From assembly GCA_034509925.1 (NCBI GenBank), contig CM067534.1:3638501-3702500 (forward strand): DNA of 64,000 bases, read 5' to 3'. A program made the position numbers and the translations under genes. Shown piece after piece: positions 33,138 through 61,681 of the stretch. The notes beneath the pieces were generated by a model, which had not been told where the DNA came from, did no database searches, and saw only the letters and a program-made list of their open reading frames with translations. This DNA comes from Hirudinaria manillensis (lineage: Eukaryota > Annelida > Clitellata > Hirudinida > Hirudinidae). Every line of letters begins with the position of its first letter. Position 1 is the stretch's first letter.

Positions 33138-34546
33138 GAAATCTTCAGGTAAGGCGTATATGACGACACATAGGTTCAAAGCGATAAATATATAATGAGG
33201 AATGCAATGATAATTTTTAAATTAAAGCAAATATAGGGTCCTAATGCATCACGTCTGCTAATCATTCACCACGAAACAAAATATTATTTCAACTAGGTTT
33301 TTTTTTTAACTCCGAATGTAGAATTCATCTAAACGATTTAACGGTTTGAAATTGAATTGATGAATTCTTACGTTTGTTGTATAATAAAGTGAGAAAAAAA
33401 CAAAACAAACCACATCTAGTCATATTCCAAGTGTTAAAATGACATTTCAATGCACGTCTGATGCAGATTTGACATTGCATGCACCCTCCCATGCACCACC
33501 ACAGGTGAAATGTCGATCGCAAATCATCACGTCACGGTAAATACCAGCTTTTTATATAAATATAATTGGAATTCTTAAACTCTGGGTCTTGAATGGCAAA
33601 CAAAGTTTTTCAAAAAGTTTCGGTTTCATGGCCCCGACAATTTATTAAGCCTGACAACCGTGTTCGTGAAGTTTTTATTTAACAAATAAAACAACTTTAA
33701 AAGATTATCTTTTTATAATTGTTTATTGATATTCTGCATTTGATTGTATCTCCACGGCAGTGAAAAATGACAAATTACTTTAATGATCGCGTTTATTCAG
33801 TCTTCTGTATTCTTTGTACACCCTTCAATTCTTTATATTTCCCTTTATCGTCCTAAATTTTATATTTTTAATAATTGGCTCAAGTAATATTTCTCTCATT
33901 AATTATATTTAATTTAAATTCTCCCTCGTCACAAACATTTGGCCGCAAAAGTCCGGTAGCCGAATTTCAGCTAGATTATGAAAACAAATTGGGTGCATCG
34001 TGTCAAAGATACAACGTTGTTGTTCACTAAAAGGCTTTAATTTAACAGTATATGTAGTGTTTATTTTTAAAAAGATGTGGATTTTTAAGATAATTCAACA
34101 TAAGATCGTCCAACTTTGTCAGTTATGCAAGGCTCAGTTTTTTTTTTATCTCTTTTTGAGAGGCTGTCAAACATGACATACATGCAGTAGTACTAGTGGT
34201 GGTGGTAGTAATAGCTGGTTACAGAGAGTTTATTTAAGGTCGCTGTGTGTTGTACGATGTACGAAGTTACGAAAAATTACACTAACTTTGAAATAGCGCA
34301 ACTTCATGGATCTCAGACTATCATTCATGTGAGTCTCTCTGAAAAGGTTTGTTTGAAATGATGGGCCTGAATTTTTTTAAACTCTCGATTATCTTCTCAA
34401 TTATTAATAACGGCTCTGATACTAATTACATTTAACCATCTTAAAGGATATGATTACTTCTAATTTATGTTTAAACCTTATATTGCAGAATTTAACAATT
34501 GTTTTACCATTATTATAAGAAATTATAACAGCAAGTGCCACCGAAC
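33138..34546. other. Intergenic, upstream of the SLC52A gene
   Basis: The region is AT-rich and holds no exon that I can support. A likely 3' splice site (AACAG) lies 16 bases before the SLC52A start codon, so a 5' non-coding exon and promoter probably lie here. Confidence 0.5.
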
Positions 34547-36088
34547 ATGGGGACTTTAAGTTTTTCCAAAGTATCGCCGATAGTATACTTATTGATAAGC
34601 ATCTTTTCCATATCATCGTGGGCGGACATAGTCGGTCTCTGGATGGAACTGCCATTGATGATAAAAGAACTTCCAGAGGGATGGAGTCTTCCATCTTACA
34701 TGTCACTGGTCGCCCAGTTGGCAAACGTGGTGCCGCTTGTGTATTTCATCGTATCCAGCATTTATTCCAAGCGGAGAAGTGCAGGGAATGATGTCCACAA
34801 CAAAACGGATATCCTTTTGTCCTTTGTAATCATTTCCGTGGAACTCCTGTCCATGTTTCTCATGTCCATCTTCTGGAATTACACGGTCATCATAGGCGGT
34901 CAAAATCGAAGCGTCGCCCTGTTAGCGTTGCTTTGCTGCAGTGGAGTTTGTAGTTGCTTGTCGTCATTGGTCTTTTTGCCCTACATGGCTCGCTATCCAG
35001 ACCATTACATATCGGCATATTACTTGGGCAATGGATTATGTGGAATCGTACCTGGATTGATAGCCTTATCTCAAGGCATTGGGGAAGAACCGCTGTGCGT
35101 GAATACTACTCTGACAAATAAAACATGCTCGAGTCTTAATTGTGAGGACTCACATCACTTTCAAATGGTACCTGAGTACCCTGCACCCAACTTTTCAGTT
35201 CAAGTTTATTTAATTTTTATTTGTTGCTTGTTAGCTATCAGCTTTCTGTCATTTTATTTTCTCAACTACACAAGATTAGTGAAGCATCAATTATCTAAAA
35301 ATGATCGGAATCAGAAACGGGCGAATTTCGTCGTGACAAATGGAATGAATCAGCGAAAGTCAAATGAAGTGACTGGAGATGAATTGCTTGCGATGGAACA
35401 ACATGCAAAACAATCCAATTGTAATTTCATCTATCAGTTGATCTTGACTGGCATTATTAATGCAGTTTACTATGGAGCAGTGCCTTCCTTATTACCCTTT
35501 TCCTGCCTACCATACGGAGATTCTACGTACAATCTGGCCCTCAGACTGTCATTCATGACTGGAGCCGTTGCCTCTGTTGCTGTCTTATTTCTCCCAGAAC
35601 CTAGCGGAAAAGTTGTAACGGCCATAGTTTCAGTTGGTTTGTTGAGCAGTGGATATCACTTAATATTGGCCTTGCAGAGTCCCCATCCAGTTTTGCAGTA
35701 CGAAGTTGCTGGGCCATTTCTAGCGGTGCGTTTTACGAACCTTCTGCATTACGAAATTTTACAAAAATGCCTTGGAACTATCTAAAAATTTGCTAAGAAT
35801 GGTACATTCAACAAAAGAATTTTCCTAACTTTGATTAGAAGTTACTATTTAAAGGGTGGAGTTAATTCGACGTTTGAATTACAGGTCGCCGGCGCTCTGG
35901 TCATGTCAATCTGCTTTTCTTATACCAGAGTGACAATAGCCGCTAAGCTTCATTCATTGAAAGGACGTCAGGCTCTGATGTGGTGTGGTGTATTGACTCA
36001 AATTGGAACCTTTTTTGGAACTATGATAACCTTTGCCATCATCAACTGGACTACCCTTCTTGTCAGAAAACCCCCTTGTAGCGGATGA
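34547..36088 (+). CDS. SLC52A: Riboflavin transporter, SLC52A family
   Basis: SLC52A proteins bring riboflavin across the plasma membrane and have about 11 membrane segments. Two exons join in phase 0: 34547-35725 (donor GTGCGT) and 35885-36088, giving 460 aa (human members 445-469). Family hallmarks are WADIVGLWMELPLMIKELPE with GWSLPSYMSLVAQLAN directly after it near residues 25-65, LGNGLCGIVPGLIALSQG, and LPFSCLPYGDSTYNLALRLS in the C-terminal half. I chose the ATG at 34547 rather than the upstream GTG. Between segments there is an extracellular-type loop with N-glycosylation sites (NTT, NKT, NFS). If intron retention occurs, the protein ends about 20 residues after the first exon and loses its last segments. 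A polyadenylation signal lies at 36181-36186. Confidence 0.95.
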
Positions 36089-37685
36089 TTGAACGTATGC
36101 AAACGTATACATACGTATGCGTTTCTACACCAATGAGCATTACTGGTGTAACTTCAAATGCACTTGTTCCACCTAGACAAAATAAAAATTAACCATTTTA
36201 TGGCTTGAATTAAATGCGCTGGTGCAAATAAATTCACGACAAATTGAGCCTTTGAACTTACATAAAATATGCCACATGCCACCATTCACCAGATGTTAGT
36301 GTGTGAACTTTTTTTTAAACTTCATCTCTACAAATCCATCTTTTCGTGATCAATTCTGTTTAAATATTCAGTGTAACCAATCCTTTAAGATGCTTTCGAA
36401 CCATTACTAAAACATTAAAGGTGACCGATCAACGATCAACATCAACTTAATCTTAAAGTAATTAAATTAGCGCCGGCAGTTGAATTCGTGTTTGGTCGCG
36501 TCATACACCATTTGAAATCGTTATTTATATTTATATTACCCAGAGACACGACCAATTTTTTTCGTGTGTTACTTCGCTACGGGCCCGTCTTAACGTTTAA
36601 CATTCGAGGAGACACACCATTTGTCGCCGTAAACACGAGTCTCTTAAGAATGATTGATAAGCACATACTTTGAATTGTTGATCATCATTATTAGTCATAA
36701 ATAAACAAATGGAATTTTAAAAATATGTAAAACGTATACATAATAACCCTTTCCCTGAGTCAAAATCTTGTCAATGTACCTGCTTACCAATATTTATTTT
36801 AAAAAATAAATCGTTCAAACTAATAACACCTGGAAGCCGCTTCGACTTTTACCCAAGTGGGTGCTAATCAATCCCTGCCTCAGCCTAATGACCACTACCG
36901 CTTCCCATCAAGAGCTGCGATGGAGCTATGTATGAACACAACAAAATAGATGAAGCCGTCACCAAAATGTGCTTGACAAACGAACCTTACAAAAACAGCT
37001 TCAATAGTTCTATATTTAATTAAAGTAATTTTATAATTATTTTGATACTTTCACTGTCATTTTTACTGAGTACAGTATTTTAAACAAATACTTCCAATTT
37101 CATTGAAACAATTTTGTGAGGTAATGTTTTATTTTCACCCATAAGTGAAAAAGCAGGTATGTATTTCAACAAATGACAGAACTGCTCATGTATATGCAGA
37201 ACTAGTTAATAAGAAATCAATGCAAAATAAAATAACCAAAAAATAGTGTGATTAGTGACAAATAGGAAATGAATAGAAATGATAACCAAACCAATACAAC
37301 AAATTTGTAAAAGTCGAAAAGACAAAGGCAAATAACTTTTATAATAGTTAAACGAATTTATAAAAAGCAATTTAAATAAAGCAAACTTAAAATGCAACAA
37401 ATATAAAAATTGCAAGTAACATTCTAACAATGAAAATGTTATAAAATTTAACCCAATAAACAAATAATATTAAAATAATAGATAAATTATATAACATTTT
37501 ATTTTTAATCAAATGATAAATTAGAAAATGTTTTTCAAAAATTAAACGATCAAGCCTTTCAACAACTTCCGATTATGTTGAAGGGGAAGCCGGCAGAACG
37601 TTCTTTTCGCCGCATGCTCTTAGGTGGGTTGGTCGTAAGACCGTTATCGCATAGCTTTGAATTTTTTTTTCAAATTAATAAAGAT
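36089..37685. other. Intergenic between SLC52A and snoRNA array
   Basis: No coding exon is visible. The last 120 bases before the first U14 copy are less AT-rich, with TTCTTTTCGCCGC and a donor-like CTTAG|GTGGGT at about 37620, which could be the first exon of a host transcript. This is only a suggestion. Confidence 0.4.
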
Positions 37686-37769
37686 GGAACGGTATGATGA
37701 AAATTGAAACATTCGCAGCTGTCGTCTGATTTGTGATGTTCAATTCCTTCCTTGGATGTCTGACGTTCC
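37686..37769 (+). ncRNA. SNORD14: U14 snoRNA (SNORD14), unit 1
   Basis: U14 is a box C/D RNA needed for 18S rRNA processing and for 2'-O-methylation of 18S near C462. Box C ATGATGA, D' CTGA, C' GTGATGT and D TCTGA are in place. CATTCGCAG (domain A) pairs with 18S CTGCGAATG, and CCTTCCTTGGATGT (domain B) pairs with 18S ACATCCAAGGAAGG. The closing stem is GGAACG/CGTTCC, differing from the GGAAAG/CTTTCC of the other three copies by a compensatory pair. Confidence 0.95.
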
Positions 37770-37842
37770 GATTAGGATAATTTTTTATTCTGTTGACCCG
37801 TGACGGGATGCGGCCGCTGTCGGTCGTAGTCTAGTTTCGGAG

Positions 37843-37980
37843 TGCCCAGATCGAAGCCGAGGAACCTGTAATTCATTTGGGTTTGTCGGTCAAAAACTGA
37901 GGCCAGAGAAAGGATCTCTTTAACGGTCGCTCGTCGGTCGATTGTACGGCTTCGGGCACTTACCCAGGAGATCGACAAGA
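37843..37980 (+). ncRNA. H/ACA snoRNA, unit 1
   Basis: Two hairpins are joined by an H box and followed by ACA three bases before the 3' end. Hairpin 1 is closed by GCC/GGC with an inner AACCT/GGGTT stem. The H box is AGAGAA. Hairpin 2 is closed by GATCTC/GAGATC, with inner GCTCG/CGGGC and apical GTCG/CGGC. The tail is GACAAGA. The apical pair here differs from GCTG/CAGC in the other copies, and both can pair. I have not assigned the pseudouridine target. Confidence 0.85.
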
Positions 37981-38002
37981 ATGGAGGATGTTTTATGGTG
38001 CA

Positions 38003-38071
38003 TGGCAATGATGATTCCTGATTAGTCTTTCTTAATCAGATGATGAACACTTTCGCCCCTATCTGATGCCA
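38003..38071 (+). ncRNA. Box C/D snoRNA 'CD2' (28S guide), unit 1
   Basis: Box C ATGATGA, C' TGATGAA and D CTGA lie between a TGGCA/TGCCA closing stem. CTTTCGCCCCTAT before box D is complementary to 28S rRNA ATAGGGGCGAAAG. A second stretch, GATTAGTCTTTC, is complementary to GAAAGACTAATC directly adjoining and overlapping it in 28S. I cannot name the mammalian counterpart with certainty. Confidence 0.85.
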
Positions 38072-38104
38072 GCGCAAGAAAGTATTAAATTAAATTGATA
38101 ACTT

Positions 38105-38181
38105 TGTCGAAATGATGTTTTATAATGCATAGTTCATCTTACCAATACTATGGTGACAATTATCTAGTCAACTGATCGACA
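38105..38181 (+). ncRNA. Box C/D snoRNA 'CD3', unit 1
   Basis: A perfect TGTCGA/TCGACA stem encloses box C ATGATGT (last base off consensus) and box D CTGA. GCATAGTTCAT in the 5' half is complementary to 28S ATGAACTATGC. The stretch before box D has no rRNA match that I recognise. Confidence 0.75.
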
Positions 38182-38203
38182 TACATAATGATGATTTGGA
38201 TTT

Positions 38204-38283
38204 GTTGGCAGTGATGCATCAATATTTGCTATCATAGTTTACTGTGATGAAGGAAAAACTACCACTAAGATCTCTGAGCCAAC
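38204..38283 (+). ncRNA. Box C/D snoRNA 'CD4' (28S guide), unit 1
   Basis: The closing stem is GTTGGC/GCCAAC, with box C GTGATGC, C' TGATGAA and D CTGA. CTACCACTAAGATCT before box D pairs with 28S AGATCTTGGTGGTAG, with one G-U. Confidence 0.8.
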
Positions 38284-38373
38284 TCTTATTTTACTGTATG
38301 TTATTGTAACTTGGTGAAGCAGTTTTCCTATATTTTATTCAGGAAAATTCAATGTAATAGTTTTGTAATTATC

Positions 38374-38446
38374 TTGTGCAATGATGCTTTCTCACACTTG
38401 AAATCCAAATATTTTTGATGTGGACAAAGTATAAGACTGAGCACAA
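38374..38446 (+). ncRNA. Box C/D snoRNA 'CD5', unit 1
   Basis: The closing stem is TTGTGC/GCACAA, with box C ATGATGC, C' TGATGTG and D CTGA. The guide before box D differs between copies (AAAGTATAAGA here, AAAACATAAGA in the others), and I have no target for it. Confidence 0.7.
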
Positions 38447-38478
38447 CCTAAGTATGTAATATTGATGGACAGAAATTA

Positions 38479-38563
38479 TGGAAAGTATGATGAAAATTGA
38501 AACATTCGCAGCTGTTGTCTGATTTGTGATGTTCAATTCCTTCCTTGGATGTCTGACTTTCCA
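38479..38563 (+). ncRNA. SNORD14: U14 snoRNA (SNORD14), unit 2
   Basis: The copy is intact, with stem TGGAAAG/CTTTCCA, boxes C, D', C' and D, and both 18S-pairing domains. Confidence 0.95.
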
Positions 38564-38638
38564 TTTAGGAAATTTAGGTTTTCATTTATTTGCAAAGACA
38601 CCAGGTGTGACCAAAGTTGGTCATGGTCTGTGTTCTGG

Positions 38639-38776
38639 TGCCTAGATCGAAGCCGATGAACCTGTAATTCATTTAGGTTTGTCGATCAAAAACTGAGGCA
38701 AGAAGAAGGATCTCTTTAACGGTCGCTCGTTGGCTGATTCTACAGCTTCGGGCACTTACCCAGGAGGTCGACAAGA
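38639..38776 (+). ncRNA. H/ACA snoRNA, unit 2
   Basis: The layout is as in unit 1. Hairpin 2 closes with GATCTC/GAGGTC (one T-G pair) and has apical GCTG/CAGC; the H box is AGAAGA and ACA is three bases from the end. Confidence 0.85.
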
Positions 38777-38798
38777 ATGACAGATGTTTTATGGTGCT

Positions 38799-38867
38799 TG
38801 GCAATGATGATTCCTGATTAGTCTTTCTTAATCAGATGATGAACACTTTCGCCCCTATCTGATGCCA
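38799..38867 (+). ncRNA. Box C/D snoRNA 'CD2', unit 2
   Basis: Boxes, TGGCA/TGCCA stem and both 28S-complementary stretches are the same as in unit 1. Confidence 0.85.
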
Positions 38868-38898
38868 GAGCAAAAATGTATTAACTTATTAATGATTT

Positions 38899-38975
38899 TG
38901 TCGAAATGATGTGTTATAACGCATAGTTCATCTTACCAAGATTATGGTGACAATTATCTAGTCAGCTGATCGACG
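38899..38975 (+). ncRNA. Box C/D snoRNA 'CD3', unit 2
   Basis: The stem is TGTCGA/TCGACG, its outer pair now T-G. GCATAGTTCATCTTA and box D are kept. Confidence 0.7.
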
Positions 38976-38996
38976 TTTCATGATATTTGAAGATTT

Positions 38997-39076
38997 GTCA
39001 GCAGTGATGCATTAATATTTGCTATCATAGTATACAGTGATGAAGGAAAACCTACCACTAAGATCTCTGAGCTGAC
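38997..39076 (+). ncRNA. Box C/D snoRNA 'CD4', unit 2
   Basis: The stem is GTCAGC/GCTGAC, against GTTGGC/GCCAAC in unit 1: two compensatory base pairs. The guide CTACCACTAAGATCT is unchanged. Confidence 0.85.
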
Positions 39077-39106
39077 TGGTATATAATTGTTTACTTTAGC
39101 TTGATC

Positions 39107-39182
39107 AATCGGCTGTGATGATTTATAAAATCACACACTTGACCTGAATAACATTTGATGTACATGTTTTTCTGAGCTGATT
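39107..39182 (+). ncRNA. Box C/D snoRNA 'CD6', unit 2
   Basis: The stem AATCGGC/GCTGATT encloses box C GTGATGA, D' CTGA, C' TGATGT and D CTGA. It is present only in units 2 and 3. I have no rRNA target for AATCACACACTTGAC before D'. Confidence 0.75.
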
Positions 39183-39237
39183 TGAGTTTATGGAAAATTA
39201 TGTGTAATAACCATTTTATAGTATTGCTGAAGATGTC

Positions 39238-39310
39238 TTGTGCAATGATGCTTTCTCACACTTGAAATCCAATCATTTTTGATGTGGACAAAACATAAGA
39301 CTGAGCACAA
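39238..39310 (+). ncRNA. Box C/D snoRNA 'CD5', unit 2
   Basis: The TTGTGC/GCACAA stem and all boxes are intact. Confidence 0.7.
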
Positions 39311-39338
39311 CCTAACTTTATAATATTGATTGCCAGAA

Positions 39339-39423
39339 TTGGAAAGTATGATGAAAATTGAAATTCGCAGCTGTTGTCTGATTTGTGATGTTCAATTCCT
39401 TCCTTGGATGTCTGACTTTCCAA
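39339..39423 (+). ncRNA. SNORD14: U14 snoRNA (SNORD14), unit 3, domain A shortened
   Basis: Stem TTGGAAAG/CTTTCCAA, boxes and domain B are intact. Two bases are missing (GAAATTCGCAG instead of GAAACATTCGCAG), which removes the C of CATTCGCAG and shortens pairing with 18S by one base. Confidence 0.9.
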
Positions 39424-39493
39424 TTAGTTTTTATATGCATTTTATATTTTATATACTAGGTGTGACCAAAGTTGGTCATGGCCTTTGTTCTGG

Positions 39494-39631
39494 TGCCTAG
39501 ATCGAAGCCGATGAACCTGTAATTCATTTAGGTTTGTCGGTCAAAAACTGAGGCAAGAAGAAGGATCTCTTTAACGGTCGCTCGTTGGCTGATTCCACAG
39601 CTTCGGGCACTTACCCAGGAGATCGACAAGA
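39494..39631 (+). ncRNA. H/ACA snoRNA, unit 3
   Basis: The layout is as in the other units: hairpin 2 closed by GATCTC/GAGATC, apical GCTG/CAGC, ACA three bases from the end. Confidence 0.85.
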
Positions 39632-39653
39632 ATGGAGGATGTTTTATGGTGCA

Positions 39654-39722
39654 TGGCAATGATGATTCCTGATTAGTCTTTCTTAATTGGATGATGAACA
39701 CTTTCGCCCCTATCTGATGCCA
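39654..39722 (+). ncRNA. Box C/D snoRNA 'CD2', unit 3
   Basis: The boxes and guide CTTTCGCCCCTAT are kept. TTAATTGG replaces TTAATCAG before C'. Confidence 0.85.
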
Positions 39723-39755
39723 GCGCAAGAAAGTATTAAATTAAATTGATAACTT

Positions 39756-39832
39756 TGTCGAAATGATGTTTTATAATGCATAGTTCATCTTACCAATACT
39801 ATGGTGACAATTATCTAGTCAACTGATCGACA
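39756..39832 (+). ncRNA. Box C/D snoRNA 'CD3', unit 3
   Basis: The sequence is nearly identical to unit 1, with stem TGTCGA/TCGACA. Confidence 0.75.
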
Positions 39833-39854
39833 TACATAATGATGATTTGGATTT

Positions 39855-39934
39855 GTTGGCAGTGATGCATCAATATTTGCTATCATAGTTTACTGTGATG
39901 AAGGAAAAACTACCACTAAGATCTCTGAGCCGAC
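39855..39934 (+). ncRNA. Box C/D snoRNA 'CD4', unit 3
   Basis: The stem is GTTGGC/GCCGAC, with one T-G pair relative to unit 1. Guide and boxes are intact. Confidence 0.8.
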
Positions 39935-39971
39935 TCCTATTTTACTTATGATATGTTATTTTAACTTGGTT

Positions 39972-40047
39972 AATCAGCTGTGATGATTTATAAAATCACA
40001 CACTTGACCTGAATTACAATTGATGTATATTTTTTTCTGAGCTGATT
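39972..40047 (+). ncRNA. Box C/D snoRNA 'CD6', unit 3
   Basis: The stem AATCAGC/GCTGATT is fully paired where unit 2 has a G-T pair. Boxes C, D', C' and D are kept. Confidence 0.75.
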
Positions 40048-40103
40048 TGAGTATAAGGAAATTTATCTATGTGTAATAACCATTTTATATTGCTAAAGAC
40101 GTC

Positions 40104-40176
40104 TTGTGCAATGGTGCTTTCTCACACTTGAAATCCAATCATTTTTGATGTGGACAAAACATAAGACTGAGCACAA
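40104..40176 (+). ncRNA. Box C/D snoRNA 'CD5', unit 3, weak box C
   Basis: The stem and box D are kept, but box C reads ATGGTGC instead of ATGATGC, which may impair the kink-turn. Confidence 0.55.
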
Positions 40177-40206
40177 CCTAAGTTTATAATATTTGTGGAA
40201 AAATTA

Positions 40207-40291
40207 TGGAAAGTATGATGAAAATTGAAACATTCGCAGCTGTTGTCTGATTTGTGATGTTCAATTCCTTCCTTGGATGTCTGACTTTCCA
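40207..40291 (+). ncRNA. SNORD14: U14 snoRNA (SNORD14), unit 4
   Basis: The copy is intact, with both 18S-pairing domains and stem TGGAAAG/CTTTCCA. Confidence 0.95.
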
Positions 40292-40359
40292 ATTATAAGT
40301 TTTTATGTATTTGTCCTGTTGCCAGGTGTGACCGAAGTTGGTCACGACTTATTTTCTGG

Positions 40360-40497
40360 TGCCTAGATCGAAGCCGAGGAACCTGTAATTCATTTGGGTT
40401 TGTCGGTCAAAAACTGAGGCCAGAGGAAGGATCTCTTTAACGGTCGCTCGTCGGCTGATTCTACAGCTTCGGGCACTTACCCAGGGGATCGACAAGA
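40360..40497 (+). ncRNA. H/ACA snoRNA, unit 4
   Basis: Hairpin 2 closes with GATCTC/GGGATC (one T-G pair), the H box is AGAGGA and ACA lies three bases from the end. Confidence 0.85.
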
Positions 40498-40518
40498 ATG
40501 GTGGATGTTTTATGGTGC

Positions 40519-40589
40519 CTGGCAATGATGATTCCTGATTAGTCTTTCTTAATCAGATGATGAACACTTTCGCCCCTATCTGATGCCGG
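40519..40589 (+). ncRNA. Box C/D snoRNA 'CD2', unit 4
   Basis: The stem is CTGGCA/TGCCGG, with boxes and 28S guide intact. The repeat unit stops right after this gene. Confidence 0.85.
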
Positions 40590-41111
40590 CATTACATTTA
40601 ATTTATTTGTTATTTCTTTTGGAGATTTTTGTCAGATTTGGTTGAAGGAAAATTCGTAAAATAATTGGCAATAAAATAAACCCACACACTTGTGTTGCTG
40701 GTTGGTTTGTTTTATTTTATTTGGGGTAAAAACTTTAGATTTTATTGGGGTAATTAATGGTATTAGATTTATTTGATGTTGAGACACCACTTGGTTTGTA
40801 GCACTAAGAATTTGTTAAAATTGTTGTTAGTCGTGAACTGGTTCAATCCTCTTCATTTTGTTATGGTTGAATATTCCTGCCCTCGTTGGCTGTAAAGTAA
40901 TTTAATTTTTTTAGATTGTAATTTTGATTAATTTTATAAAATGTGAACTTTTTATAACTATTTAAATTGCATAACAATGCTATGTAAAACTTGATTTTTT
41001 AAAAAATACTGTTAATACGTTTATGTATCACTTGATGTCAATAAATAATTGAATAATCTTCATGTTATTACTTCAAAAGCTTTTTGGGTTGTCGATACTG
41101 GGGATTGTTAT
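40590..41111. other. Gap between snoRNA array and first channel gene
   Basis: The sequence is AT-rich, with no box C/D or H/ACA motif set that I can recognise and no exon. Confidence 0.5.
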
Positions 41112-43736
41112 TCAATCTATTACTAATTTTAGCTTAGGCTTAGGTAAAAACTTTCTAACTTCCTCGGGTGTATCTGTTCGGTGATTCTCCTTCTGCAATT
41201 TATAAGAAATATAAATATTTGTAATCTATCTATATAAATAAAAATGCAAGGTGTGTTTGTATCATGTAAATGTTCCCTGAAATTAAAAATACGTTTTTTT
41301 TTTCGAAAATCCTGCCATGTCGCCACGGACATGAAAAAGCTTAAAATGTCTTGACCCTCAAGCATTGTGAAATTGTAAAAATAAACATATTAGAAAATGT
41401 CTTTCTTATAAAATTAATCAGATTGAGCCACAGCAACGCGTGCTGGACACCTCTATAAATATTTCTCTATGAATGCTGTGAAACCCGATAGAATATAATT
41501 CAGATTTCATACTGAAATTTTGATTCAATTTTACTAGATCGAGTTGGTTTTTGATTACTAGATATTCATAAAATTAATTGTGGAATTATTAAATTAACTT
41601 GGAATTTATCACACTGGGAAACCAGCTAACCTGTAATCTGATGACGACAAAAAAACCAGCTTGGAACGCCAAGTAAATGAACCCAAATGATCCCATTACG
41701 ATGATATCGATCGTTCGTCCAAGTTCCGTAGATTTCTGCTTGGTAATCATTGGACACCAACTTGAATTGTTCGCTAAGGTATAAGAGATTAATGGCTTGC
41801 TTTGCGTCCAACTATTTATAATTGATCCGGAAATAGACTGCCATATGCAGATACAGCACAGTATCATCATGGAGCCCAGTACATACTTATCCTGTGATTG
41901 CATAAAAAATTACTTATGTAGTCTTGAGGTTTAATCTGTCGAGGAAAACATGTCACGTGGCAATACAAACTAGATATGTAAGGTACGATATCTTCGGAAG
42001 ACTCTTGTTAACGACCAATTTGAAAGTAACTGTGGTCAGGACAAGTAGAAAGGTCAAAGGTAGCCTTGATTCAGGCGTTTCCAGTTGCACGGTAAACGTC
42101 GCAAAGGAGAGACTGCATATAGCAAACTGTAACATGGATTGTTCATATTTAAATTGTAGGTGATTTATTAACAATTTATTGAATTACAGCTTACAAGAGA
42201 CCAATAAAAATTGTAACAAAATACGTACCATGATAACAATGACATTGTATATAAAAAACTGTGGTCTTCTGGCCGCTTTTGTGGCAACACAGAAACAGGG
42301 ATACACCAGCTTTTTCTTGTGAACCGTCTTTACACTTAATTTCGTCCACACTTCAACCGATTTGTGGATCTGCCATTCCTGAGCTGCACTGAAAGCTCCG
42401 GCATTGACTGAACTGGTGTCGTCTGGAATGAATTCCATCTCAAAGGCCTGTCTCTCACTGGTGACTGTGATTGTGAGATCCTGCGATCATTTGCATCCAT
42501 TTTTATCGCCATTCGCAATTTGTCATTTACTTGAACTTGATAAATCTGAGAAATTTAACCTACCCGGCATTATTAAAATTGAAGGTAGAGAATACTTTGA
42601 TATTACTTTAGTTCAGAACCAATTAATGATTAACGCGATTAATATTTTAAAATGTTGGATAAAACCGCTCGTCTGTGAATCAATTTTGGTTTAATCAAGA
42701 CAAAACTGGAGACTTTTAGCCATACCTTATAGTTGTTAGTATTAATACCTTTTGGCCATATCTTGTAGTCGCTGGTAGAAATAGCTAATAGTATAATATC
42801 TTTTAGCCATACCTTACAGTCTGTCGTATTAATACTTTTTATTCTCTAACGCAAGCTAACCTGAGTGTCGAAAGGGAACTTATGAAGTTCCATGAACTCG
42901 AAGAATTGAGATGCACTTGTCTTACGTTTCTCAACGATCCAGGCCTTGCCACATTCGTCGATTTGAAGGAATTGTGTCGTGTTGTACTGAAGTTCACCGA
43001 TACCGTTAGCGATGCTCACCTTGGGATTCCAGAATTGAGACAAGTCTGCACCAAGTTTTTCTCTCTAGAAAGTTACCAGAGAAAATAAGCTCTTTCATGA
43101 GTATTCTGCATCTACATTAATTAACAGCAATAAATATTAGTAATTAATACGGCTTTTTCATAACTTGTTATCTTATTTTTGCACATATATGTCAAGAAAT
43201 TAGGATACACACTATAGACGATGTACATAGTGTCAATGCCTCAAATTGTTTCATTTAAGTTCTTAGCCAGATTCTACAAGTTTGTATCAAGAGAAACTCA
43301 AGACCGGGGAGCAATGCATCCCAACGAGGCAAACGTAGTGTAGTTTTGATAATTTCAACTGGTACCGTCTTGTCATCATCAAGTAATGGTTCTCTCCATC
43401 TGAGATGGACCATCACCTCGGCCGAATAGCGATCATGTGATGTGTCAATGGCACCGATTTTCAAGAAATTCACCTTCACGAACACAAAGACCTGAATCCC
43501 GAATCACATAATTTAAAAAAAAAACTCGAAAGGCTTTGTTTAAAGCCGACCTTTTCCAAAGTTTCACTTTCGAGAAGTGGCTGAGGAAGGAATCTCTTTG
43601 GATCAGGGATTCTAATAAGTCTTGGCTTTGATAGAATTTGTTTGTCGTTTTGTTTCAAAGTTAGTAAATGATCTTTCAGAAGATTCTCCAAACTTTTGAT
43701 TTGAAGAATGAAGAGCTTGTGTTTATTGTCTTCCAT
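41112..43736 (-). CDS. Pentameric ligand-gated ion channel subunit, Cys-less, copy 1
   Basis: The product is an orphan member of the Cys-loop receptor superfamily. Seven exons join in phase 0: 43551-43736, 43366-43491, 42861-43064, 42229-42480, 41971-42126, 41631-41891, 41112-41192, giving 421 aa from ATG 43736. The extracellular half contains WNPKVSIANGIGELQYNTTQ and FEFMELHKFPFDTQ, the equivalent of the FPFDxQ signature, but the Cys pair that defines the Cys-loop is absent. TM1 follows ARRPQFFIY (about residues 242-268), TM2 is RLPLTFLLVLTTVTFKLVV (about 275-297), TM3 starts DKYVLGSMM (309), and TM4 is about 372-393. The ligand and ion selectivity cannot be read from sequence. There is no obvious N-terminal signal peptide, so a 5' exon may be missing. 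Confidence 0.85.
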
Positions 43737-44633
43737 CAATCGATAAGCACTTTTCAATATCCTGAATTTTCTGAACTGGACTCCATGGCACGATGGAATC
43801 GAGTGACAAATAACGATTTTGTTTAATATTTTTAAAAGCAAAATCAATTAATGAATTAATTATCCAAAAGTAGTTTGGTTCTATTATATCATTTCATGAT
43901 CTGCTTTACCCAAATACCGCTCATTCAGATTTTATTTAGTTTCTCATTCAGTACCGAGGGGAACAATAAATAAAAGCAGCTGAAATTGATGATCAATGTT
44001 GCTAAGGAAACTTCATCGTCCCCTTGTGCTTGCTTGTAGACTTCAAATACACCTTTGCTTTTGACTCATCATTTGAGGCACAGAAATCCACATTATACAT
44101 TAGTATGAGCACATCCCTATTTTAATTAATCACTTCCATATCACGATGGCGTTTACATCCTGAACAATTTAGAACAAACCTTCACGAGAAGAGAATGTGA
44201 ATGAATGAATGATTTGTTACGAGGAAGTTTTATTTATTTTTGCGAGTCTTGTTAACCACTGTGTTGTCTCGGCACACTTCCCGTGGCAGTGAATTAAATC
44301 GATAAATAATTCCTACTTATTTTATCGCATCTTATTGTGTCGCATTTATCTTCATGGAGGATGTATCCATAGAAGAGCCATTGAAATATCATGGTAATGC
44401 AAATTCAGTGACGTTTTGTTAGGTTAGGTTTTCGAAACAATGAACGTATCAAATCAATTCATAACTGAAAATTTCATTAGTGAACATTTTTTTTGCATAA
44501 AGATGTACTCGCTCACGTGGTACGTAATTATTGACCAATAATTTTGAATGAGTAGAAAAGATGATGACAAAATATCGAAGTTAAATTGATTTTTTCCTTC
44601 ATAAAAAGAGGAAGCTAACTCAAATGGACGATT
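43737..44633. other. Divergent intergenic region, channel 1 and chitinase
   Basis: No gene is visible in this 0.9 kb. It should contain both promoters and possibly a short 5' exon of channel copy 1. Confidence 0.5.
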
Positions 44634-51114: not shown

Positions 51115-52312
51115 TCATTCGACCACTGTTGGGAGACTTTGTTTGACCGCTTGGAGCTTCGGTTCGTTGGCTGGACTGACTTTGTCTCCGTTACCAAACA
51201 ATCCCAAGGCTACCATGGCCATGTTGTTTCGGTTTTCTTTCTTTTCGGCTTCTTGCTCTTCATCGTCGTCGTCGTTCTGCGGTGGTTTTTATGTTTCTCT
51301 TACCTTTTTATGCTAATTAATTAATTGATTACAATGGATTAGATATGTTTATCATTAGTTATGCTTTGGTTGATTAACATCATCTAGGAAAGAAATGGAC
51401 TCACGATGTTTAAATTTTCATTCACTCCATCGTCTTCTTTCTAAAAGTCGAGAAAAATCAAATCAATGTCGAAATGAAATTCAAAAAACATCCAATGATA
51501 ACTCAGGCTAGATTAGACTATCTAATGATACACCTAGAGATACACTTAAGGCAATGAGTGAGTCACAATGAATCATACATCGATATGTATCATATGTAGT
51601 ATCTTATGAGTATTGAATCACCTGGAATAATGAAAGTCTTACGTTAGCGACGATGGAAAAAAGGAAACAGAGGTGAAAGCCGATATAGATGACGGCAAAA
51701 ACGCCAAGAGCTATTTGATCGATCATCTTTCCGGTAGCTGTTGCAGCCGGTTTCGTGATGTTCGGACATTGCGTGTTGTTGATAGCGGTCGTCGCCGCTG
51801 CCGTCGCTGTGGTCGCCGTCGGAGATTTTGTCGTCGTTGGAGAGGGGGACGGTTGAGTCCAGGAATTAATGAAGGAACCAACCATTGAGTGCCAGATGCA
51901 AACAGTGCACAAGATCACCATGGATCCAAGGATGTATTTGTCCTATTATTTTTGCAATTATCTAGCATAATATAATTATATTTAATATAATTTTAATATA
52001 ATATAATTATATCTAACAATTACATATTTTAATTATAAGTATATTTAATCATTACGTTATCCCATTATTAATATAATATTGTTATATTTCCATTGTTAAT
52101 AATAATTTCCATTTTTATTTGCCTGACCTCAAAAATCTTACAAAATCGTGGATCGATTAATGCGCCTACATAATTGCGTTACATAATAATTAAGCTTATT
52201 AAGAATTAAAGGTTAATTCTCATTAATAGCTTATTATTAATATTAATTATTATTAATTAATATTATTAATAATTAAGATAATTAAGATAATTATTAATTA
52301 TCTTAATAAATA

Positions 52313-52347
<35 letters not shown>

Positions 52348-52910
52348 GTTAATTATTAAATATTAATTCTTATTAACGGCTAAATTAATTATTTAATTAA
52401 ATATTAATTTTAAAATATTAACTCTTATTATTAATAAATAAATAAATAAATATTAATTAAGCTTATTAACAATTGCTAACTAGGTAAGTGAGGTAGGATA
52501 TCTTCGGTAAGCTCTTGTTGACCACGAATTTGAAGGTGACGGTTGTCAGGACCAAGAAAAATGTGAGTGGCAGTCTGGACTCGGGGGTTTCAAGTTTTAC
52601 AGTGAAGGTGGCAAATGCCAGGCTGCATATGGAAAACTGCAGTGGATAAACAGGGGTCTTGGTATTAACGTATGTTAATAATTATACGATCAATATTTTA
52701 TTATAATTATATAATTAATATTTTATTATTATTATAACATTAATAGTATATATTAATTATACGATTAATATTTATAATATTTATTATTTATTTAATATTT
52801 ATTATAATTATATGATAAGTATTACATTATAATTAAGTGGTTGATATTGTATTGTAATTATACGATTAATTAACATTATATTATTTTATGCTAATTATTA
52901 TATATAACTA

Positions 52911-52942
<32 letters not shown>

Positions 52943-55294
52943 TATAATTATAAGATTAATATTATATTGTATTGTATTATATTTACATGATTACTATTTC
53001 ATTATAATTATGTGATTAATATTAAATTATAATTGATGACTTGACATTTATTATTTTATGGTTAATTACGTATATATCATATTAGTATTAATAATGTAAA
53101 GTCATGAAAAATGTTCGTGGAAATTGTAGTTTTGAACCAACAACGCGAACGATTTCAAGTCAACGTTTGCAGAACACAAACATTATTTGTCATTTGAAAA
53201 CGGGTAAATATTTAAATAATCATTTTCTGAAAAATTCCTTCTTAAAATGACAAAAATCCGTTTTAAGAAGATCATAAATTTTATTTAAATAATATCCTTC
53301 ATGTAATTTAAATCAAAACAAATATGAAGTTGGAACCAAAAATTCTGAATATCAATTAGGTACTAAGCAATCCAAAACTGTACTCTTAAAGTGCAATGAA
53401 AATGATTTTCAGGATTTGTTTATATATTAATATATATAATACAACTTATTGTTAACATATAAAATATAATTAATGTAAGTTAATATTTATAATATAATAT
53501 ATTTCTCATATAAATTGTCTTTATTGAACCAAAACAAAAACATTAAAATTAATATAATATCAGTTGGCCGGAAGTAATTTCAATACATCATAATATAGTG
53601 TTGTAAAGGTTAGGGTTGGAGCATAAAATATGATTAATGCATAAATAAGTTAATATATATAATATAATATTTTGTTAATATATCTAACACATAATTAATA
53701 TAAGTTAATACGCATAATATAATAAATTTTTAAAACATGTAATACATAATTAATACAAATATACAAGCGACACAAGCCATACATTAAAGAGGCCGAGGTA
53801 TCGTTCTGACCATGATGACGATGATGTTGTATATGAAGAACTGGGGTCTTCTGGCCACTTTGGCGGCCACACAGAAGCAGGGGTACTTCATCTTCTTCTT
53901 GTTCACCTTCTTCACGTTGAACTTTGTCCAAATGTTGACCTTCTCGTGGAGTTTCCACTCCTGGGCGGCACTGAATGCATCCGGGTTGACCGCGCTTTCT
54001 GAATTTTCGTCTTGCAAGAATTCCAGTTCACTGTCCACTCTTTCGCTTGTAACTGTTATCGTTAAGTCCTGTGGTCATTTGTTGGTAGTTAGTGATGATG
54101 ATGATGATAATAATAATAATGATAATAACAATAATAATAATATTGGTGATGATAATAATAATAATATTGGAAGTTCGATTGATTTAAAAACCTAAAAATA
54201 CGAAAAAAAAACCGAACTGATTTCAATCGGAAGTTACAATTAGTTACAAACAGTTGAATTCACGCCGGGGTTGACTCCTTGTTGACTGAAAACAACAAAA
54301 GGAGGCAAACAACTTTCCTAGCGAGCGCAAAAATTACAAGCAAATTGAAATCCAATGGAAACGAGGTGCGGACGGAGGCTTTCCAGTTGCACCTGCATCT
54401 TTTTCCACGTTGACTGCTGGAAAGAGCTAACGACCTATTTCCGGAGGGACCACTGATGACATTCATTAGCTATTTATTTCACGTATTTAAACGTTTACAC
54501 CTATATTTGTTTGATGATGAAAAATTAGAGTGAATTGAATCGAATCATGTCGCCAATAGTTGTCCAACTTTCAAAAGTGAATTTCCAAACGTTTCCAGAC
54601 CTGTCCGTCAAATGGGAACTTGTTGAGTTCCATGAACTCAAAGAACTGTCCGTTTGTCCTTCTCCGTTCGAATACCCAAGCCCTATCCGTATGATCGTAT
54701 TCCAGGAAAATCGTGGTGGTGTACTTAAGATCTCCGATGCCGTTCGAAATGGTAACTTTTGGATTCCAATATGTCGACAGATCGTATTCTTTGGTGGACT
54801 GAAAAAAAAAAAAGAAAAACATGTGTTTTAAATAAACGGATTCGAGTCGTTCACGAATGTACTCCAATGAGTGTCACCCCCTTAAGTGCATCCAAGGCTG
54901 GCTCTCTCCACTTTGTTTGGACCATTACTTCTGCAGTGTACCTGTCGTGGATCGTATCGATGACTCCGATCTTCAAGAAGAGAATCTTTACGTAAACAGT
55001 GACCTGTGGAAAGCGATTAGCGACTGTTCGAAGTTCATTCCATCTTAGATGGTACATCGTTTAACAACCAACTTTTTCCTCCTTTTTCGTCAGGTCTTTA
55101 ACAGTGGAAGCTTTCCTCCTCGATCCGGGCAAAGAGACGATGCCAGAAGAGATGACGGAAAGATTCTTCTTGAGGGGATCGTTGTTCTCGATGACCTTTG
55201 AACTGCTTTCGATGACGTGGATGTGACTTCTGATTAGCCTTTCCATGGCACGGACAGTCGAAGACAAAGAGGCTGCGGTTATTACTTCTCCCAT
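51115..55294 (-). CDS. Pentameric ligand-gated ion channel subunit, Cys-less, copy 2
   Basis: This is a paralogue of the channel gene at 41112-43736. Eight exons join in phase 0: 55073-55294, 54878-55003, 54601-54798, 53811-54068, 52481-52636, 51643-51942, 51405-51440, 51115-51276, giving 485 aa from ATG 55294. Landmarks are WNPKVTISNGIGDLKYTTT, FMELNKFPFDGQ, VARRPQFFIYNIIVIM (TM1), RLPLTFFLVLTTVTFKFVV (TM2), DKYILGSMVILCTVCIWHSM (TM3) and a TM4 near residue 400. The Cys pair of the loop is absent. Exon 5 (TM2) is clear from splice sites even though short. The TM3-TM4 loop has a Thr/Ala-rich stretch. The exon ending at 51643 (donor GTAAGA) could also extend to 51622 (donor GTGATT), adding seven residues in frame. 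The C-terminal exon is acidic then basic and has no counterpart in copy 1. Confidence 0.88.
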
Positions 55295-57472
55295 TTCGTT
55301 CGATCGACAACTTATTCCGACGAATTTAAATTGAATTTTTATTTATTCCAGTCCCAAAATAACGAGAGATGGAAATGAAAATTAATCGTTGATCAGTTCA
55401 ATCGACCGATTAGTCTTTCAACTCTTTGTTACTCCGATGTCGCATCGTTGAGTTTTCCAAGCGATTTCCAGGTGAGAATGTGACGGCGTATGATCCGTGG
55501 AAAGGTATGAAGCGTCGCGAGTAATACGAGCTTTTCCTATAGAAGAGAATCATCATCATAATCACTGTCGCTGCCTATGGCTGCTCGGTTCTTCTCTAGT
55601 CTGAAGGCGCCATTGTTTTCCTTGGAGACTAGATAAATGCAGAAGTTCCAACAGATTCCATTTTCTCTGTAATTGCACAATTATCGTTCAATAAAAACGA
55701 AGAAATCCGCCTCGTAAAAATAATGAATGAATGAACAAATCATAAAACCATTGAACTGAATTAATTTCGTATTTCAGCTAAAAGTTTCTGAACGATTTTG
55801 TTTAATTATTTCATTTTATTCAAAAATCATCCACCTGTGCTTTAAAAATTCAATATTAAAATAATAAAAAATAATGGTAGTTTAAAAAAGGCACGAGTTT
55901 TGACTGATTCCAGCAGAACCAGTTGAGGAAAACTTGGCTTGTCTGCATAATGACCGGCTTATTAAATAATTCGTACCTGAATCGAATTAGCACTCAACTG
56001 ACATCGTGAGTGTCTGATTCTCTTTTATCATTACCTGTCCTTTTTTCGAAGCCACGGAAGTGGTTAGAAAGCCTACAGGTTTGTGTGTGTGTGTGTGTGT
56101 GTGTGTGTCATCGTCATCGTCGTCGTCATCTTCACCTATGCCTTAGTTAATTATTTTTCTCTGGAGGTTTGTCACCGTGGTTCATTGATCAGTTGCTCCC
56201 TGCCTTCGTAAGCGGACGTCAATAATTCAACCTGGAAACTCGGAGACGGAGAGTTTTCCAAGCATGGATTTCTGGGATGAACTTAGCTCGTTTGAATCCA
56301 ATGCCACACGTTATCGTCACCTTCGCTATATGAGACGTAATGTCGTATTGACTGTTTTGGTTCGTTTGATATCGTGCTTATAAGACTTTTAAGTTTTTTT
56401 TTCATATTTTCTTATAATATTAATTTTTTTAAATAAGGAATATTTGCGAGTTTCAAAGTTGAATGACTTAATTAGTCTTGTCAATTGGCTTCTATGATTA
56501 GGTATCTTTCAAGGAATGAGTGCATAACACTACAAAGGCTCAGTGGAACAGTCTGGTAATTTTCTACTCTCGTCGTCGTCGTCTTCATCCTCAATTAGTG
56601 TCGGAGCCTGCTTGAGGAATGCACGTGGCGAACTAGCGAAGCGGAATGGGTCGATACGTTTGTCACCGGTTGCCAATGACGACCGAAAATAAACAACCAG
56701 GACCATCTACGATGGCTACGAAACTGTTTCATCACCAATTAGAAACTGCAGCCAACGAGAGGGGCCCATTGAAGGGTCATTGCTTTGCAATAATTTGCAC
56801 GAAGCTTATATCCATAGATATTTGACATAATGTATTAGAATGTTAAACATAATTTGGGTAGTTTTTAATATATTAGAATATTAAACATAATTAATTCTCA
56901 GCATTGACGGCACATTCGCCCCTCTGTAGAAATGTTTGCTTTGCCATTTAATAAATCGACGCTTCTCGGAAAGAGGTGCTTGAGTCTAGTTTACCGTGGT
57001 TTTGGCAAAATTTGCTCAGCAATTTATGCGAACCATGACCGAAAGAGGTTGAGACAAGACAATTAGATTTATTTTTATAAACAAGAAATGGCAACAATAA
57101 TTTATCCGAGATTGACAATAATTCGATAAAATTGCTTGAATAATAATAATTATTATTATTAAAAATAATTAAGTCTTTGAAATCGTTGTTCGCCAAAAAG
57201 CACAGAAATATATGATTAGTGCCATCTAGAGAATGAAAAGAAAATGTCGAAAAATTGTAGTAACCCTAGCGAGTGAAATGAAAAGAGACGGCTGATCATG
57301 GCGGTTGCTATTGTGATAGAGGAGCGATTAGGAGCCGATAACCATTGAATACTTTTCGAACGAATTGGAAATAAAATACTCGTTCGTGTCATTTTATTAT
57401 GAAACTCTTGTGAAAGTGAACAACATCACGACCGGTTGTCGAATTATAATTTTTTTCCTTCGCATTTCTTTT
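55295..57472. other. Intergenic between channel copies 2 and 3
   Basis: No exon is visible. A (GT)n microsatellite occurs at 56081-56108. The promoter of channel copy 2 should lie near 55300-55700. Confidence 0.5.
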
Positions 57473-58992
57473 TCATTCGCTAGGTGAGATCGGAGGCCTG
57501 GGTTGCAGCGTCGACGCTAATTTGGAAGCCATTTTGATGGTTTTGAGGTTCTGCTGGTAATCCATCTGTTTTCTTGGTTAAAAAAAGAACACATTTTAAT
57601 TCTAATTAGTTCTAAATTCTAATTAATTCACGCCGTTTATCTTAAATGCATTATAATTTATGTAGCGCATCATTTGATTCAAGCGATTGTATGATTGTCT
57701 TGGCAAAAAAAGAAAAAATACAAAATACAATTTGCAATTGTTGTCTGAAGTTTTTAATTGTATAAAAACGTCATTGGCTTCGAGCAACACCACGATCATT
57801 GTAAACTACCTGGTTGCCAATTCCTTCATCATTATCTTCATCTTGACTTCTCCTCTAAAATAACAATACCTCGATTTCAATATTAAAATCTGCCTGTGCA
57901 ACAAAAGGATAATTAGAATTTTTATAATTTACAATAACGATAACAATAACAATAATAAAAATAAATGCATTTTTATCAGAATTAATTACAACAACAAGTG
58001 CCTTTTTATCAGAATTAATTTGGCTAATCCGGCATGGTTATTACTTCTACTGTGAACTCCTAATGAACTCCCTGCCGGGAAAATACGTGGAAACAGCAGC
58101 ACAACACGACAGCACGGGATGACACCATTTAGCAGCAACTTACAACAACAACAACGACGGCGACGACCACAACAACAACATCAAACATCGTATTCAAGGT
58201 CAAACATTCTGTCGCCATTTTGCTTACACTGCGAATGATGAGAGCGAGAAAAATCAGGTGAAATGCGATGTAAATGGAGCTGAGCACGGCCAGGGCAATC
58301 GTATCCACCAACATGCAACTCGGGCCGGGAGACGTGGAACTCTGAGAGTTGCACTCGGTCGATGAACTGCAATCGAAATCAATTAAGTAATTGCGGTTAA
58401 TTGTAATTAATTATAATAATTACGAATTTAAATCTCCTTTGATGATATTCGTCGGTCACGATTTTAAAATTTTATACTAATTTTCTGGGAACTGTTTTGA
58501 AAGAGACAATAATTATTCAAAGAGAAACTGATTCTCGTATTACAATATCGAAAGAACAAATAGGTCAAAATGTAATACAAAATAAAATGTATTATGCATT
58601 TAATATTAGATTCCAACAAAAACAAAATCGTTCATCTGAAAAAAAGGACATTTTCTTTCGAGTTTAGATAAATCTCAGAAATACCTGTAATTACAAAAAT
58701 AAATACAGCGCCCCTGAAAGCTCACGCGCACCGCGCTATATAAATGACATATTATTATTATTATTAAATAAATTATACAAAATAATTACAAAATAACGAT
58801 CGAATACTTGTTGCCATTTTCGGCTAGATGTGACGTGAGGACGGTGTCGTTTGGAGTATTGACGAGGTGGGAGCCTTGGTTTGGGGGTGCGGCCTTAGGG
58901 AGGCTGTTGTAGATTATTGAACCGACCACGGCGTGCCAGACGCATATGCCACACAGGATCACCATGGAGCCCAGTATGTATTTGTCCTGGTC

Positions 58993-59071
<79 letters not shown>

Positions 59072-59915
59072 CATAGATCAATATGGATCTAAATTACACT
59101 TATTTGTTTGGAAAGGAGAACTGAATGGGCTTGCTTCTAACAACCTTTCCAAACAATGCATGCAAAGTGTGGTGATGATGATGACGACGACGATGACTAC
59201 GATTGTGATAGCAATGCCACGGGAGAGGATGATGACTACGACGATTGCCGTAGAGGATAATGGACAATATTTTCCATGAAAACAAAGTTCATTGGATCTC
59301 GTTACAAAATAAACTCACAACGAAAATATTTTCCAAGCATATTTGATTGCTTCAATATAGAAACAATTTGGATTTAGGTGGTGATGATGATGATGGTGAT
59401 GGTGGTGATGGTAATGCTGATTCTGTTGATAATGATAATGACTGTTAATGATGATGATGACGATGACGACGACGACAAATTCCAACTAACCAAGTAAGTG
59501 AGGTAAGAAATCTTCGGCAAGCTTTTATTGACCACGAACTTAAATGTAACGGTTGTTAAGAGGAGGATGTAGGTTAACTGGAGTCTGAATTGCGGTGTTT
59601 CTAGGTTAACTGTGAACGTGGCAAATGCCAAACTGCAGATGGCCATCTGAATAATTCATTCCTTGCCATTACTTGTCAGCAGTATCAGCAGCATTAGTAT
59701 CAATATCAGCATTGGTATCAATATCAGTATTAGTGTCAGCATAGGTATCAGCATCAGTTGCCAAAAAAGATCAATTCATCGTTTCCCGACATTTCGAGAT
59801 ATCATTTTTGCTGTCATTTTGTTTCTACGTTGCGTTCGCAAAATTTTAAATTTTAAATTGATGATCACGACCGATAACATCACCACAAAGGTGACGATGA
59901 CGACGACGCCGATGA

Positions 59916-59948
<33 letters not shown>

Positions 59949-61075
59949 CATTCAAAGGGAGGTGATAATAAGGCTGAGAATAATGATAAAGGTGCCGATG
60001 ATCCAAGTACCTATTATCGTTCTCAGCGTCTCTGATCTCGTTTCCAGCACTTCATTAGGGCACAATTAACAGTGAAAATTACAATCATCATAACTTTCAT
60101 AACTCACCCATGGCGCTAAAATGATGTCATCGTCGCCGCAGTCGCAGCCGCCGCCGTCGTCATCACCACCACCACCACCACCATTATCATCATCATCATC
60201 GAGGTCAACGTCCTCCCTCCGATGCTGCTAACCATGATGATGATGATGTTCCAAATGAAGAACTGAGGTCGTCTGGATGCTTTGGCGGCGACACTGATTG
60301 CCGGATACTCGACGACCATCTTGTTGATCGTCCTAGTGATCGTTCGAATCCAGGTGGATACGTTCTGCTCCAGCGACCACTCCTGTTCGGCACTGAACGC
60401 CTGGGCGTTTATGCCGCACTTTTCCACCTGATCCAGGCAAATATTGATGATGACGACGATGATGTTGATAATGATGATGATGATGACGACGATGACAAAA
60501 TTATGAATTGTAATTCCACCTGATCCAGGAACATGTCCACCCTGTCGACGTCTTGTTCGCTCACCACCGTCACCGTGAGATCCTGAATGGAAATTGTAAA
60601 TTGTAAATGTAACTGTAATTGTAATTGTGATTAATTTATATAGCGCCAGTTTCAGAGCCAAAAAAAGCGCTTCCCATATTGTGTAAGCGCTTATCGAATT
60701 GTCGAAGCGCCAATTGAAGTATTCGTTCATTTACGTAGCGCCAAATCATTGTCTCCTTCGCCCAAGCTGGGTTTCGAACACGTCACCTACGATGATATTA
60801 TCATCGAATCGTGTAATTGAAAAGCAATTTTTTCGAATTCTCGAGGAAGAAACTTTGAAAAGAATTTTAAAAACTCCAAGAATTCCTTGCAGAATTTCCA
60901 ACGCACGCAACAATTTGAACCGAAACCTCGAAAAATTTCGTCTTAAAATTTCACAACGTTTCAATTCAATTATCCTTGGTATATACCATTAATTTGTGAT
61001 TTTGTTATGGTGTGATTATAACTAGTAACAGATAATAATAATAATAATAATGATGCTAATAGTAAAAATAATAAC

Positions 61076-61173
<98 letters not shown>

Positions 61174-61181
61174 TGATGATG

Positions 61182-61249
<68 letters not shown>

Positions 61250-61668: not shown

Positions 61669-61681
61669 CTGTTAATGGTTG

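Follow-up and report, generated by a model that had tools for sequence, protein, structure and literature searches.

A dense four-unit array of U14, H/ACA and other box C/D snoRNA genes in Hirudinaria manillensis and its predicted host transcript

Animals predominantly carry one small nucleolar RNA (snoRNA) per intron, whereas plant snoRNAs usually occur in intergenic clusters with one promoter; intronic clusters are also named as an existing class (PMC11028025). One cluster described from Drosophila has each of its snoRNAs in a separate intron (PMC1821038). Intronic gene clusters were first found in rice and then in Drosophila, and polycistronic clusters containing both snoRNA classes are reported from plants and trypanosomatids (PMC2780460). 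In Drosophila, H/ACA genes flanking box C/D genes are uncommon, and one mixed cluster, Uhg-46E3, is mentioned (PMC5932544). Here, a mixed snoRNA array of the annelid Hirudinaria manillensis is presented. It is located in a window of 64,000 nucleotides, the whole stretch of DNA that was analyzed (assembly GCA_034509925.1, contig CM067534.1, positions 3,638,501 to 3,702,500), and coordinates refer to this window unless another locus is named.

Judged by its sequence, the array is real and dense. Between positions 37687 and 40589, 23 snoRNAs were predicted, all on the forward strand like every other element of the array and its predicted exons, arranged head to tail as four units with 6, 7, 7 and 3 members; together the snoRNAs occupy 1991 of 2902 nt. 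The array consists of four U14 copies, four copies of an H/ACA RNA and 15 further box C/D RNAs, which fall into five classes (C to G). The first-pass annotation of this DNA had described about 23 snoRNA genes on a single strand, arranged in four head-to-tail units and combining U14, one H/ACA family and five other box C/D families, and this description was borne out.

The 22 spacers range from 21 to 94 nt; 15 of them measure 21–39 nt and the remaining seven 57–94 nt. Because of the 15 short spacers, an arrangement of one snoRNA per intron is impossible for most members, and since an exon would not fit into most of the spacers, the snoRNAs would have to be freed by endonuclease cuts. This geometry supports the polycistronic nature proposed in the first-pass annotation. 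By eye, a first exon with a TCT/terminal oligopyrimidine (TOP)-like start (CTTTTC) was predicted at 37603..37634, ending at a predicted donor GTAAG (37635), and a last exon at 40636..40700 following TTTTTGTCAG, which ends at 40635. AATAAA occurs twice, at 40670 and at 40675, and is followed by a GT-rich stretch, again seen by eye. In the same genome, one RPS8 gene inspected in this way has a GTAAGT donor, and TCTTT precedes its start. With a single predicted donor before the first of the 23 snoRNAs and a single predicted acceptor after the last, the snoRNAs would be contained either in one 3.0 kb intron or in a precursor that is not spliced.

It is likely (probability about 0.7) that the array is transcribed by RNA polymerase II (Pol II) as one host transcript, which may or may not be spliced and is cut endonucleolytically. 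Transcription would start from a Pol II promoter at about 37.6 kb and give a transcript of ~3.1 kb ending after AATAAA near 40.67 kb. The cleavage sites would lie in the spacers, which are rich in A/T, possibly at the hairpin that precedes each H/ACA RNA. The cut RNAs would then be trimmed back to protein-protected small nucleolar ribonucleoproteins. Such a hairpin was detected in the spacer between U14 and the H/ACA RNA in all four units (37809..37828, 38606..38625, 39461..39480 and 40327..40346), with two pairs altered on both sides; in unit 1 it is kept with a different sequence. That it acts as a processing element is a guess. A plant-type operon in an animal, in which one Pol II transcript undergoes an RNase III-like cut at the hairpin of each unit, the two guides of an ancestral snR60-type RNA are split over two neighbouring snoRNAs and nearby satellite U14 and class C genes are transcribed by RNA polymerase III (Pol III), is a tentative and rather unlikely extension.

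Regarding the function of the members, U14 would act in 18S maturation. Box C (ATGATGA) and box D (CTGA) are present in all four U14 copies (37687..37767, 38482..38560, 39343..39419 and 40210..40288), and the closing stem GGAACG/CGTTCC of copy 1 is replaced by GGAAAG/CTTTCC in copies 2–4, which is a paired change. Comparison with SNORD14 (RF00016) yielded 44.7–50.2 bits (E 2.2e-7 to 6.6e-9), below the curated Rfam score of 64, which is a scoring cut-off and no molecular feature. Domain B, a 14-nt guide abutting box D, forms 13 Watson-Crick pairs and one G-U pair in 4/4 copies with positions 409–422 of the small subunit (SSU) ribosomal RNA (rRNA) of another eukaryote (locus L029), a pairing equalled by 2/60 shuffles. 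Domain A forms 11/11 pairs at SSU 84–94 in copies 1, 2 and 4, counted without a shuffle control, and is two bases shorter at its edge in copy 3. The two 18S-pairing domains ascribed to U14 in the first-pass annotation are thus both recovered.

Class C (38003..38072, 38799..38868, 39654..39723 and, as the array end, 40520..40589) and U24, the class E RNA (SNORD24; 38206..38281, 38999..39074 and 39857..39932), are predicted guides of 28S methylation. The class C guide CTTTCGCCCCTAT, directly before box D, forms 13/13 pairs with a 28S fragment of the own genome (L019), which none of 60 shuffles equalled. U24 reached 44.0–47.5 bits against RF00069 and exceeded the curated score of 41 in 3/3 copies. 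Its 28S guide, also abutting box D, forms 14–15 Watson-Crick pairs and one G-U pair (15 + 1 G-U equalled by 0/60 shuffles), and in its closing stem two pairs are altered on both sides between copies. In a side observation made by eye, the class C copies were also seen to hold GATTAGTCTTTC (38020–38031 in copy 1), complementary to the 28S sequence just after the box D target (GAAAGACTAATC in L019); no nameable D' box adjoins it.

Class D (38897..38977 and 39754..39834; the unit 1 snoRNA between class C copy 1 and U24 copy 1 lies at 38103..38183) is placed among the 28S methylation guides by family similarity. Its score of 34.7–39.1 stayed under the cut-off of 41, and in the alignment to the family the D' guide GCATAGTTCA was matched, whereas the D guide was not. 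Complementarity to the own rRNA, one of the points on which the first-pass annotation had staked its reading, was followed in the ribosomal DNA (rDNA) pieces of the assembly; it held for class C with its complete pairing, and the class D site showed one mismatch. The similarity of class F (orphans at 39107..39182 and 39972..40047) to SNORD79 and of class G (38376..38445, 39240..39309 and 40106..40175) to SNORD63 lies mostly in boxes and ends, with scores under the cut-offs. Among all 19 box C/D copies, CTGA is present in every one; box C matches RTGATGA in ten, differs in the last base in eight and in two bases in one, class G copy 3, which is possibly decayed (ATGGTGC).

In the copies that were folded (1 and 2), the H/ACA RNA (37842..37980, 38637..38776, 39492..39631 and 40358..40497) forms two hairpins and carries an H box and an ACA box. 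In 4/4 copies AGAGAA, AGAAGA or AGAGGA serves as the H box (ANANNA) and ACAAGA is present, with ACA 3 nt from the predicted end; 157/160 stem cells are paired, and one pair is altered on both sides. Since the scores against SNORA16 (RF00190) were below the curated value of 35 (34.6 in unit 1 and 25.2 in unit 4), the RNA is called SNORA16-like only. Hairpin 1 forms 7 + 7 pairs around a 28S uridine (next best match, 9 pairs), a target that appeared with one of the three framings used for the pocket and was scored without a shuffle control; it would direct formation of pseudouridine there. This uridine would lie in the peptidyl-transferase region of 28S. Of the five U14 copies found, four are in this locus, as are all copies found of this H/ACA guide, which would target a core site of 28S, and the copy number suggests that the array may raise the dosage of rRNA guides.

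Several observations weigh against the reading as a functional array expressed from one transcript. The transcription start, splice sites and poly(A) signal were called by eye, and AATAAA and T-runs are frequent at this base composition. The covariation of the spacer hairpin was equalled in 90/500 shuffles, and each U14 contains a B-box-like TGTTCAATTCC at 2 mismatches. Targets of U14, U24 and the H/ACA RNA were scored on rRNA of other eukaryotes with incomplete cover of 28S, and hairpin 2 of the H/ACA RNA had no consistent target in the 28S/18S pairing trial. The class D guide reached 21 points in the pairing scan, under chance-like matches of 22–23 or 25. For classes D, F and G the guides at box D, and for class F also the D' guide, performed no better than shuffles (18–51 of 60), with the exception of G2 (2/60) and F2 (4/60), whose guides differ in other copies. 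By pairing scan and shuffles, no convincing rRNA target was found for classes F and G or for the D guide of class D.

Comparison of the units bears on the possibility that the array is partly decayed, some copies being expressed and the rest being pseudogenes kept alike by gene conversion, which is compatible with a single transcript. In favour of decay, unit 1 has no class F gene and unit 4 is short, box C of class G copy 3 is changed, U14 copy 3 has the shortened domain A, and the D guide of class F is not conserved between copies. However, in units 1–3 the six shared classes are 94.5% identical, while the spacers drop to 66.8%, a contrast matched by 2/799 label shifts. Furthermore, the stems change in a paired fashion, even if the shuffle controls of these changes are weak with three or four sequences (90–110 of 500 reach the observed values). 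Partial decay of this kind is considered unlikely. Gene conversion between units is suggested because units 1 and 3 are 97–100% identical in one block of five consecutive 60-column windows (37956 to ~38254, from the 3' end of the H/ACA RNA to most of U24) and only 20–95% elsewhere. The four units would have arisen by tandem duplication and would then have been homogenized in part by gene conversion.

Another explanation gives each snoRNA or unit a promoter of its own on the upstream side, comparable to the UM1–UM3 genes of C. elegans, some being transcribed by Pol III. DNA searches with units 1 and 3 revealed one U14 and one class C copy 88 kb from the array on the opposite strand (L009, G000:C9:3583001–3593000, 5208–4662, minus strand; class C first, then U14). 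Each is preceded at ~20–25 nt by a tRNA-type B box (0 and 1 mismatches), and these are the sole matches at ≤1 mismatch in 10 kb. TTTT follows the dispersed U14 within ~10 nt and is absent after the dispersed class C. These copies are possibly Pol III-driven snoRNA genes, and they resemble the C. elegans UM2 type (PMC2527325). Within the array, the imperfect B-box-like stretch in every U14 would also fit own promoters, but no tRNA-type B box was found there at ≤1 mismatch and most spacers are short. For the array we consider this explanation distinctly improbable. ARAGORN detected no tRNA in L009, and a repeat family as the source of these two copies was rejected, as each tRNA-like flank matched itself only in a search that skips very common words. 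For the H/ACA RNA and for classes D, E, F and G, DNA search of the 148 Mb assembly revealed no further close copy, although such a search could miss diverged ones.

A conventional host, a coding or non-coding gene of several exons with a separate intron for every snoRNA, would follow the predominant animal arrangement (PMC11028025, PMC1821038) and could draw on a 5' splice-site motif (own simple pattern) in 2/22 spacers, but it is highly improbable, as was the multi-intron host offered in the first-pass annotation, since the motif is absent in 20/22 spacers and the 15 shortest leave no room for acceptor, exon and donor, even if length alone leaves an exon possible in the other seven.

The assembly yielded no complete rDNA unit; the 28S pattern matched in one place, a 142-nt fragment, the 18S pattern matched nothing, and the own 18S 5' part was not found. 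A genome search with 5.8S yielded a decayed rDNA piece (L017, G000:C10, 2833–3954), in which an 18S 3' part and a 5.8S piece stand beside reverse transcriptase-like sequence, and a contig end (L018, 4640–5000), where contig C14 of G000 breaks off within sequence resembling the L017 rDNA spacer. Because of this contig end, the rDNA array is probably absent from the assembly. A eukaryotic 28S motif was seen in contigs filed under bacterial genomes (L022–L029), with curated rRNA matches in the four that were scanned (L023, L025, L026 and L029). Among viral contigs, one carried the 28S motif without a curated large subunit match, and two further patterns were unmatched; the plasmid collection contained no match.

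In the surroundings, an SLC52 riboflavin transporter gene lies upstream of the array (34529–36088; two best relatives 62–65% identical). Pieces of open reading frames on the minus strand at 41589–43847 and 51604–61671 resemble repeated ligand-gated channel exons; the two pieces compared with Pfam had no match there. Two RPS8-like genes were found ~0.6 Mb apart on opposite strands (L032 and L033, G000:C1). Among the 120 listed of 7930 matches to RPS8, the best four were fish proteins of greater length (73–78%), while the first matches of normal length that bore an organism name came from the leech Helobdella robusta (82%) and the nemertean Lineus viridis (81%).

Compared to the known systems, gas5/UHG-type hosts, such as the chicken gas5-like gene (PMC2653536), are non-coding and likewise contain snoRNAs in tandem, a non-coding host being predicted only for the array; in those genes, however, short exons separate snoRNAs in individual introns. 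The Drosophila mfl (pseudouridine synthase) cluster combines tandem C/D isoforms (four DmSnR60) and an H/ACA snoRNA in one host gene (PMC1821038), but with one snoRNA per intron, a rule which the array cannot keep for all of its 23 members because they are mostly 21–39 nt apart. The C. elegans UM2 genes with their tRNA-like promoters resemble the two dispersed copies and not the array (PMC2527325), and are stand-alone genes. Many snoRNAs per intron are not new in animals, since intronic clusters were reported in Drosophila (PMC2780460); among the matches listed in searches of open-licence papers, none described an array that is dense and mixed, repeats four times and includes U14. The plant polycistronic clusters are also dense, lack exons between the genes and mix C/D and H/ACA members (PMC11028025, PMC2780460), whereas the present array belongs to an animal, consists of four tandem units and possibly lies in a single host intron. 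Release of the snoRNAs from one common transcript, which their tight packing makes most likely, is usual in plants and not in animals, and this locus might serve as a test case for splicing-independent, endonucleolytic release of snoRNAs in an animal.

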